NCBI RefSeq assembly: GCF_937871615.1
Contig: NZ_CALMPA010000046.1
Coordinates: 333,314-397,313 of the forward strand
Direction of reading: 5' to 3'
Source of the DNA: an uncultured Sphingomonas sp.
Lineage (GTDB): Bacteria; Pseudomonadota; Alphaproteobacteria; Sphingomonadales; Sphingomonadaceae
DNA: 64,000 nucleotides
Positions 11,430 through 12,473 of the stretch are shown one piece after another. The notes beneath the pieces are model-generated. The model made no database searches and was not told the origin of the DNA. It saw only the letters and a list, made by a program, of their open reading frames with translations. Each line of letters opens with the position of its first letter. The first letter of the stretch is position 1. Both the position numbers and the translations under genes were made by a program.

Positions 11430-11690
11430 CGTCAAAAATGAGAAGAGGTTGCCGGACACCCCCGAGGGGAGATGCCCGACAACCCCTAAACATGGTCAGC
11501 GGCCGGAGAGCTCCAGCCCGGGAGACCATGCGAGCCTCCATGCCGGTGGACCTTGCCGTTGTTTGGAGGAGGATACCCCCCGGCGCGGCCCGATGGCGTT
11601 AGAAGCGCGTCCCCCGAACGAACTGAACCGACCCCATTGCTGAACCATGAGACATCGGATCACCTCCTTTCGCTGGTTGAAGACGTATGT
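11430..11690 (-). ncRNA. Candidate small structured transcript (leader ORF plus three hairpins)
   Basis: This otherwise gene-free stretch contains, read on the minus strand, a strong ribosome-binding site, an 18-codon ORF, then three stem-loops: TGGAGG/CCTCCA arms at 11564-11569 and 11535-11540; CATGGTC/GACCATG arms at 11491-11497 and 11524-11530 with an inner GGC-GGA/TCC-GCC stem; and a 12-base, nearly complete stem at 11447-11458 and 11473-11484 followed by pyrimidines and TTTTT at 11438-11434. This looks like a short mRNA or dual-function small RNA ending in a terminator, or an attenuator ahead of the M20 gene. I do not recognise a named RNA family. The 5' end is not defined; sequence up to about 11780 may hold the promoter. 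Confidence 0.45.
11599..11655 (-). CDS. 18-residue leader-type ORF with extended Shine-Dalgarno
   Basis: Encodes MSHGSAMGSVQFVRGTRF. Seven bases before the ATG (counting from GGAGG) lies AAAGGAGGTGATCC (11670-11657), which is complementary to the 14-base 3' end expected for 16S rRNA, far stronger than any other site in the window. The ORF ends just before a series of stem-loops. It could be a regulatory leader peptide or a true microprotein. The peptide has no hydrophobic segment and no run of one amino acid, so classical amino-acid attenuation is not evident. Confidence 0.5.
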   Translation of the reverse strand: MSHGSAMGSVQFVRGTRF

Positions 11691-11803
11691 GGCTTGGGCC
11701 ACGGTTGTTATGTCGGCCCTCTGGTTGGGATAAACAAGTCTTGTATTTCAGGCATCTTTCGACGATCTTTGATGGCTGTCGCCTGAACTTCGTAACGACT
11801 CGA

Positions 11804-12331
11804 TCAGCCCCGGCAATCTTCGATAACGCGCCCGATTTCGGCATAGGTGGGGACGACCAGCACGGGCGCGCCTTCCTGCTGGATCGCCACGCGCCCACGG
11901 CTGAACGCCATCGCATCGAGCAACGGATCATTCACCGCCAGCGCCGCCGCGATATAGGGTTGCGCGCCGCCGGTCGGTTGCGTGGGTAACGAGCGGGTCG
12001 CGCTGCTGGTGCGCACCACCATCGGCGTGGTCGCCGCGCCGGCGCGCAACAGGTACATCCGCCGCTCCCCGCGATCGCAGCGCAGCACGACGCTGACATC
12101 CCCGCCATCGCCAAACATGGCACGGGTGCCCCGGTTGTCCGCCGCGTAGCGCCAGGTGCCCGGCGTAAGCGGCCAGTCATTCCAGTCGCTCGCCAGCGGA
12201 GGCGGGGCGGCGACCGGCGGTGGCGCAGGGGGCGCAGCGATCGGCGCGCGCGTCGGCGGTGGCGCGCTGACGCATGATGCGAGCGCGAGCGTGGCGGCAA
12301 GGGCGGCGGCGAAATGAGGCTGAAGACGCAT
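11804..12331 (-). CDS. Putative lipoprotein of unknown function
   Basis: A 175-residue protein with a lipoprotein signal (MRLQPHFAAALAATLALASC; lipobox LASC), so probably membrane-anchored through a lipidated Cys at about residue 20. It is followed by a Pro/Ala-rich linker (about 22-48) and a compact domain including WPLTPGTWRYAADNRGTRAMFG and VVLRCDRGERRMYLLRAG. The domain recurs in sphingomonads in my recollection, but I cannot name a function. The start at 12331 leaves out 24 upstream codons that do not resemble a signal peptide. Confidence 0.7.
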   Translation of the reverse strand: MRLQPHFAAALAATLALASCVSAPPPTRAPIAAPPAPPPVAAPPPLASDWNDWPLTPGTWRYAADNRGTRAMFGDGGDVSVVLRCDRGERRMYLLRAGAATTPMVVRTSSATRSLPTQPTGGAQPYIAAALAVNDPLLDAMAFSRGRVAIQQEGAPVLVVPTYAEIGRVIEDCRG

Positions 12332-12473
12332 GGCCCGAAATATGACCAAGCCCGCGGGGCTTCTCAACCGGAACCGGCGTGGGGGCGTATCGGTTGAACG
12401 CATATGGAACGAATTTCGCGGATGCAGTTATCGGCGGGGGCGGCGTTCATGATCCACAAGCACACCGGACGGG

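Follow-up and report, generated by a model that had tools for sequence, protein, structure and literature searches.

The locus and its parts

Why should a short, apparently free-standing RNA carry both a 14-base Shine-Dalgarno (SD) sequence and an open reading frame (ORF) of 18 codons? The question is raised by positions 11430-11780, minus strand, of a 64,000-nucleotide stretch of DNA from an uncultured Sphingomonas sp. (the window, by which we mean that whole stretch). A preliminary description of this DNA had claimed both the anti-16S SD and the minus-strand ORF; both lie where it had placed them, and the complementarity to the 16S rRNA tail is exact. The parts of the locus are given below in the 5' to 3' order of the minus strand. 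Type 1 denotes the window's kind of ORF, which begins MSHG; A1 is an alignment of 21 of the 34 copies from the window's genus, and A2 one of 35 compact type-1 copies, picked by eye from 60 of 81 references.

11804-12403, minus: upstream neighbour, an ORF of 199 aa with no Pfam match, followed by tblastn
11734-11744, minus: palindrome ACAAGACTTGT; ACAAGnCTTG is conserved upstream
11689-11702, minus: 5' hairpin GTGGCCCAAGCCAC, close to where the RNA probably begins; in A1 columns 15-36 several pairs are kept through changes on both sides
11657-11670, minus: extended SD AAAGGAGGTGATCC, fully complementary to the 3' end of 16S rRNA, followed by G and the ORF start
11599-11655, minus: ATG..TAA ORF, 18 codons, encoding the 18-aa peptide MSHGSAMGSVQFVRGTRF
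11639-11649, minus: 5' strand of helix P1, CATGGTTCAGC, codons 3-6 of the ORF; partner 11491-11500, with covariation between types
11628-11633, minus: GGTCGG, a possible extension of P1, its partner being CCGGCC immediately 5' to the 3' strand of P1
11555-11584, minus: hairpin GCCGGGGGGTATCCTCCTCC...GGC, 3' of the ORF; covarying pairs in A1 columns 144-172
11491-11530, minus: P2, a 40-nt hairpin CATGGTC...GACCATG, nearly invariant in genus copies and rivalling P1 for the 3' strand
11491-11500, minus: 3' strand of P1, GCTGACCATG, 3 nt ahead of the terminator stem
11434-11487, minus: intrinsic terminator, a 20-pair stem with a 4-nt loop (11444-11487) and TTTTT (11434-11438); the stem covaries in A1

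With its extended SD, 18-codon ORF, hairpins and terminator, the locus has the appearance of an RNA gene that stands on its own. The predicted fold of 11430-11670 on the minus strand had an energy of -120.6 kcal/mol, against -96.3 for shuffled sequences (sd 5.0; z -4.9), and none of 200 shuffles was as good. The TTTTT ending that the preliminary description gave to the last stem-loop was confirmed; the stem, which it described as 12 bases long, has 20 pairs and a 4-nt loop. In other genus copies the terminator tail is variable, often CTCTTYTCATTT. The preliminary description had overlooked the pairing of the second hairpin's 3' arm with the ORF, as well as the upstream hairpin and the palindrome, both of which are conserved. 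No Rfam family scored above its own cut-off within the window. A fragment of 16S rRNA was considered and rejected, as no rRNA or tRNA was called in the window and the match to the 16S tail sits in a separate conserved unit.

Conservation and distribution

Conservation outside the strain, which the preliminary description had suggested looking for, was found. Of 298 genomes of the family, representing 96 genera, 243 genomes and 84 genera had a 26-nt core, AAAGGAGGTGATCCG-ATGTCTCATGG, with at most three mismatches, nearly always in a single copy. At this threshold it was absent from 55 of the 298, and the reversed pattern, used as a control, gave zero matches in the same genomes. A blastn search with 371 nt of the locus matched 36 of 61 genomes (the window's own and 60 relatives). 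Thirty-five of these are of the window's genus, namely its own genome and 34 of the 36 other members (in G019, a fragment at a contig end only); the one match in another genus was at chance level (E 0.0066), and the remaining 23 genomes gave none.

Across the class, the window's 26-mer was found in 24 of 289 genomes, and a wider pattern in 79 of 385 genomes (60 of 276 genera), both with at most three mismatches. One other family of the class, which we infer to be the Rhizobiaceae, carried a variant in 69 of 121 genomes and 66 of 109 genera. In a phylum-wide sample 35 of 249 genomes matched (rows counted by hand), 34 of 67 within the class and one of 182 outside it (G814, three mismatches); the reversed control gave one match in that sample, in G911. 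The observation is real, and the conservation extends far beyond what the sequence of the locus alone could tell. A contig named Candidatus Kuenenia (L124) had a printed sequence identical to that of an alphaproteobacterial genome (L215) and may be mis-binned.

The signature of SD and start was present at 298 distinct places in the loci fetched, each at least 260 nt from the end of its locus, and all 298 had an ORF of at most 59 codons. Besides type 1 these include type 2, the widespread kind, which begins MSHC, and others that begin MSS, MSN, MSR and so on. A type-2 copy stands beside type 1 in seven genomes of the genus (L043-L049, read directly) and in G023 (by score). In five loci (L108, L129, L135, L199 and L235), three of them named Azospirillum, the ORF behind the common SD-start block has 56-59 codons and resembles a signal peptide with a low-complexity tail. 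A phage or plasmid origin is disfavoured: the exact two-type pattern was found in 0 IMG/VR contigs, a 271-nt stretch had no match among plasmid records, and the neighbouring gene is conserved.

The extended Shine-Dalgarno sequence

An exact match to AAAGGAGGTGATCC occurs once in the window; with up to two mismatches, 0.21 would be expected by chance and two were found. In L232, from a genome of the window's genus, the 16S gene was recognised by eye, and its 3' end is exactly complementary to the 14-mer. A 13-nt core, AAAGGAGGTGATC, is present once in the searched sequence of the window's genome, at this locus, and no 16S gene gave a match there. Across 13 genomes, in only one of which a 16S gene was visible (most rRNA being seemingly absent from the sequences searched), the core gave ten matches in eight genomes. 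Eight of the ten were copies of the RNA locus; the other two were a place in L223 that resembles coding sequence and, in L232, the antisense of the 16S gene.

The 14-mer is identical throughout A1 (21 sequences) and A2 (35 sequences), with variants elsewhere; GGTCC, GATCT and GATCG forms of the SD occur class-wide. In fold predictions the SD bases were unpaired with a probability of 0.48, against 0.28 for the remainder, and the SD had the higher value in 199 of 213 MSH loci.

Selection on the mini-ORF

Among 143 distinct type-1 starts, the first in-frame stop fell at codon 19 in 121, codon 20 in 13, codon 21 in five, codon 16 in two and codon 17 in two, and stops in the other two frames were scattered, with no fixed position. 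For the 121 distinct ORFs with a stop at position 19, TAA was counted 57 times, TGA 31 and TAG 12. The first four codons are invariant. Codons 1-6 are nearly invariant and therefore cannot decide whether the peptide is under selection.

Substitutions in codons 7-17 were counted, crudely, on minimum spanning trees of distinct ungapped sequences. Single changes were synonymous in 50 cases and non-synonymous in 150 (66 multi-change codons set aside), and the shifted frames gave 50:124 and 74:100; frame 0 had no silent excess. Codon positions 1, 2 and 3 had taken 118, 133 and 88 substitutions, the third changing least, and structure inside the ORF can itself damp change at that position. In the loci that also hold the upstream neighbour gene, the mini-ORF gave 40:111 and 91/104/76, and the neighbour gave 1112:542 and 1064/677/1804, the pattern of a protein gene. 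The counts for type 2 (62:169 and 248/247/203) carry little weight, as these ORFs are of unequal length and were compared ungapped. Protein-level conservation was rejected as the reason for the ORF, based on 50:150 in codons 7-17 against 1112:542 in the neighbour gene.

By eye, the peptides of different types have little in common beyond MS. Within the other types there are recurring motifs ([EKG]Q[PS] in 43 of 69 MSS/MSN peptides; W after T, S, N or V in 14 of 54 MSHC peptides), which could be due to constraint on the RNA or on the peptide. From these comparisons, the ORF seems to be kept for translation and not for its peptide.

These results bear differently on the several parts of the preliminary description. 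Its short RNA with a maintained ORF gains support from the family-wide conservation and the covarying stems, and its assertion that the ORF is highly translated is plausible in view of the SD and the fixed stop. The suggestion of a dual function, with a functional peptide besides the RNA, found no support, codons 7-17 showing no sign of protein-level selection. The synonymous-site conservation that it proposed to examine was seen in codons 1-6, where pairing of the RNA accounts for it as well as coding does, and not in codons 7-17.

A translated counterpart may exist elsewhere in the class. The available part of PMC10117765 describes SEP1 of S. meliloti as an acidic protein of 23 aa, conserved in Rhizobiaceae and with the top translation efficiency of the novel set. 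That the 22-23-aa MSSD peptides of class relatives are SEP1 is a lead. In another family, loci L342-L378 encode MSS peptides of 20-29 aa, many of 22-23 aa and some acidic, which recall SEP1.

Fold-back of the 3' end onto the mini-ORF

Codons 3-6, CATGGT(T)CAGC, are complementary to GCTGACCATG right before the terminator. Inside type 1 the two strands of this helix, P1, are invariant or nearly so (in A2, 7 of 7 P1 pairs never vary), and its covariation therefore comes from between types. There the strands change together: CATTGTC with GACAATG, CATTGCC with GGCAATG (L212), ATGAGATT with AATCTCAT (L206), CATGAAT with ATTCATG (L221) and CGAGATC with GATCTCG (L203).

For a permutation test, one representative was taken for each distinct +7..+14 string, 53 in all, out of the 256 loci (of 257) in which a terminator was found. 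Own partners gave -10.67 kcal/mol and permuted partners -7.02 (z -10.8), with none of 20,000 permutations as good; the same 0 of 20,000 was obtained for the 39 representatives that are neither MSHG nor MSHC. Shifting the 3' window by 15 nt, which leaves it overlapping, gave z -2.6, shifting it by 30 nt z +1.7, and shifting the 5' window by 21 nt z +0.1. Single cases were often indecisive, the own partner being in the best tenth for only 29 of the 53. In an earlier test, in which each of 174 distinct pairs had one row, own partners gave -15.3 and other partners -9.8, and the own partner beat all sampled cross-type partners in 38%. Judged by these comparisons of sequence, the predicted P1 fold-back is one that covaries across the Alphaproteobacteria.

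Covarying stems, another check put forward in the preliminary description, were thus present between types and also in A1 and A2. In A2, a structure of five helices had 96.4% of its cells paired, and both sides had changed in 17 of its 35 pairs; its score was 0.282 against 0.132 (0 of 500 shuffles as high). In many A2 copies the last codons lie inside one covarying helix, with the stop codon at its loop. The inner extension of P1, GGTCGG/CCGGCC, was paired in 95.7% of A2 cells and had no covariation. RNAalifold returned structures without P1: on A2, CCGAU over the start codon paired with GUCGG instead, and on A1 the SD and start region folded locally. In A2 columns 13-17 and 39-43, the CCGAU of the start codon can pair with the GUCGG of codons 8-10, a possible third state of the invariant block.

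In the window and in most genus copies, the 3' strand of P1 also closes the 40-nt hairpin P2. The predicted probability of P1 was 0.52 in the window copy and averaged 0.49 over 125 distinct type-1 copies, being above 0.5 in 52% of them and at or below 0.5 in 48%; 18 other type-1 copies, in which the 3' motif was not found, were left out. When the SD and ORF were masked, as they would be by a ribosome, the 3' strand was predicted to fold locally into P2, with a mean paired probability of 0.68. The terminator stem overlaps neither P1 nor P2.

Relation to RF01867 (CC2171)

The preliminary description knew of no named family with this sequence. There is one that matches weakly: RF01867, the model of the Caulobacter small RNA CC2171, which reportedly originates with Landt 2008. 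It scored 30.2 bits on the window copy (E = 1e-4 in the short stretch searched), short of the gathering score of 75, and its alignment misplaces the 3' strand of the closing helix. Type-1 copies of the genus scored 24-40 bits and other places in the relatives up to 32.3. The window's 30.2 bits is near background at whole-genome scale, and the relation to CC2171 therefore rests on the compact type-1 relatives. One of these, L324, aligned end to end at 51.2 bits (E = 5e-9), in register at the SD, start block, closing helix, pre-terminal hairpin and terminator. Type-1 copies from other genera reached 35-51 bits, with other places there reaching 34.3.

The type-2 loci L204, L209, L212 and L286 passed the RF01867 cut-off at 79.7-91.1 bits (20 sources given). 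At E <= 0.01, RF01867 matched 35 of 61 relatives (one above cut-off) and 34 of 39 family genomes (two above), some of these matches being background places. A control search found Caulobacter vibrioides and, unexpectedly, Deinobacterium chartae, one match being above cut-off. The second copies of type 2 (L043-L049 and L287) are closer to RF01867 than the window copy is.

CC2171 and type 1 have the same order of parts: CGAAAGGAGGUGAUCC, an NUG-UCU-CAU start, a long-range closing helix, a hairpin before its 3' strand, and a terminator. The extended SD and NUGUCUCAU start block of RF01867 are present in type 1. Its closing helix, formed by the start block and bases before the terminator, is present across types and in the type-1 relative, and its hairpin 5' of the closing helix 3' strand, followed by the terminator, in the compact type-1 relatives. 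The hairpin that adjoins P1 in the window (11491-11530) has its 3' arm in common with P1. The closing helix is CAUuGuC with GaCaAUG in the RF01867 model, whereas type 1 has CAUGGUUCAGC with GCUGACCAUG; the ORF has 18 codons in type 1, whereas MSHC ORFs mostly have 22-25. In the Rfam line for RF01867, as far as available, the label is sRNA and there is no word of an ORF. Type 1 does not reach the defining score, and we therefore keep it outside RF01867, as a relative of like architecture; our verdict is that it would form a divergent branch next to that family, one that combines a kept translation unit with a fold-back found class-wide.

In the literature searched, which included work on sphingomonad sRNAs, we found no description of a function of CC2171 or of the mini-ORF. 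The portions of papers available list RF01867 among families with improved structure (PMC11701678) and one Mesorhizobium copy of it (PMC5596092), and report that two earlier-predicted Caulobacter ncRNAs are translated, in a passage that does not give their names (PMC4117421). Portions of PMC12559287, PMC5988900 and PMC5082802 held no link to the RNA.

Genome context

A tblastn search located the gene at 11804-12403 in 136 of 149 type-1 loci, on the RNA's strand in all 136, with a median of 159 nt between its stop codon and the SD; the loci lacking it may partly have short flanks. Its product had no Pfam match at E 0.1. By eye, an internal start of this ORF reads as a lipoprotein signal.

On the downstream side, an M20 peptidase gene was near four of 149 type-1 copies. 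A crude codon-usage score on 126 copies made the next gene co-directional with the RNA in 80 and convergent in 46; a further 14 copies gave no gene and eight were too short. An attenuator before the M20 peptidase, which the preliminary description had offered as one option, is accordingly rejected as a general role; there is no fixed co-directional downstream gene. By eye, the start of the downstream gene is YaiI/YqxD-like in L207, L209 and L286 and ilvE-like in L051, L053 and L075. SRP RNA lies just downstream of the RNA in L213 (RF00169 match) and L214 (by eye).

Of 34 genus copies, 33 had ACAAGnCTTG within 150 nt upstream, as did 90 of the 149 type-1 copies overall. The window's palindrome, ACAAGACTTGT, might serve the RNA's own promoter as its -35 region or as a site for a regulator; an E. 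coli-type promoter was sought at the locus and none was found. In the 34 genus copies (L001, L009-L041), GANTC occurred 15 times each at the fixed offsets -25 and +25 from CAAGnCTTG, at a background of 0.0015 per base; by eye, the window copy has no GANTC at these offsets. The fixed offsets suggest a CcrM/GcrA-type promoter linked to the cell cycle.

Proposed mechanism and alternatives

We lean towards the reading that the locus encodes a translation-gated fold-back RNA of CC2171-type architecture, in which the passage of a ribosome, and not the peptide, is the active step, and we hold it to be somewhat probable. Once transcribed, such an RNA would rest in a fold with codons 3-6 of the mini-ORF paired with the ten bases before the terminator (P1), the extended SD being predicted to stay comparatively open. 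A 30S subunit would land on the SD, with up to 14 pairs to the 16S tail, open P1, and the roughly 18 codons would be translated to the fixed stop. The 3' strand may then be caught by its own local hairpin, P2, so that P1 cannot re-form at once, and the fold would have been set by ribosome passage and not by the peptide. The consequence could be altered stability of the RNA, a 3' strand freed for pairing in trans, or 30S subunits held. Conservation, P1 pairing, the fixed stop and the lack of visible peptide-level selection in codons 7-17 are the comparison-based parts of this model; SD accessibility and the exchange of P1 and P2 come from fold prediction. Such gating fits the pattern of selection on the mini-ORF.

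A small mRNA with a functional 18-aa peptide, either a dual-function RNA or a plain micropeptide gene, would also keep start, frame and stop, and would account for four invariant first codons and for motifs recurring among the peptides of other types; SEP1, at 23 aa, is a precedent for efficient translation in the part of PMC10117765 available, and class relatives encode 22-23 aa, although its identity with them is only a lead. We consider this unlikely. Because codons 3-6 pair in P1, their conservation is explicable by the RNA; codons 7-17, with 150 non-synonymous to 50 synonymous changes, change least at third positions, the neighbour gene in the same loci does behave as a protein gene, and different types' peptides share little by eye beyond MS. 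That the RNA mainly holds or titrates 30S subunits through the 16S tail, with translation incidental, is in keeping with the single occurrence, in the searched sequence of the window's genome, of a 13-nt match to the complement of the 16S tail, with an SD predicted to be more open than the remainder and with a peptide that is not conserved. Such a decoy would need neither the kept stop position nor the open frame, and the SD varies class-wide (GGTCC, GATCT, GATCG); we think it quite unlikely. An ordinary trans-acting sRNA of the CC2171 kind, its SD and ORF being by-products of pairing regions, would agree with the sRNA label of RF01867 and with its scores on type 1 (51.2 bits end to end in one relative, 35-51 in other genera). 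Against it stand the joint occurrence of SD, start and short ORF at 298 of 298 signature places and the fixed type-1 stop, and it appears improbable to us.

In the window itself, a mini-ORF, alternative hairpins and a terminator do stand ahead of a co-directional gene, as expected of a leader-peptide attenuator of that gene (here M20). As the crude score makes the downstream gene convergent in 46 of 126 copies, as M20 is near four of 149 and as the terminator stem is separate from P1 and P2, this explanation is disfavoured and very improbable. Known systems of that kind, the rnTrpL-type leader-peptide attenuators and sRNAs (PMC10117765, in part), likewise have a mini-ORF on a short terminated RNA whose folds can be selected by translation; the RNA here differs in having no fixed downstream gene, no run of codons for a single amino acid by eye, and a fixed stop without a fixed peptide. 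The hok-type mRNAs, too, have a 3' end that is folded back onto the region of the start, and this resemblance is what a type I toxin-like mRNA with fold-back inhibition has in its favour. We regard it as the least credible of the alternatives, exceedingly so: the peptide is short, variable and by eye polar, not toxin-like, about one copy per genome is found across the family, and the SD is comparatively open in predictions. Extended SD helices in Staphylococcus aureus resemble the present one in that SD pairing reaches towards the start codon; according to the part of PMC13009471 available they are widespread in that species, whereas here the 14-nt match is at one RNA gene.

Implications

The translation-gated reading can be carried further, to a class-wide alphaproteobacterial family of RNA switches read by the ribosome, each matching the 16S tail over its full length, with RF01867 as one branch. 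The fold would record whether a 30S subunit had started before the 3' end was made, and the peptide would be a by-product. We offer this tentatively, as a possibility that is rather doubtful at present.

For the family, the analysis adds a conserved, mostly single-copy RNA for which no described function was found in the literature searched, with an SD whose 13-base core is single in the searched sequence of the window's genome. An architecture that is listed as non-coding carries a kept translation unit. Ribosome profiling exists for relevant species (Caulobacter, Sinorhizobium). If it is translation and not the peptide that is selected, the RNA would be a natural test bed for 30S recruitment, for co-transcriptional folding and for how translation of a short ORF bears on the fate of an RNA; and if the class-wide switch reading is true, these bacteria would possess a built-in gauge of free ribosomes.
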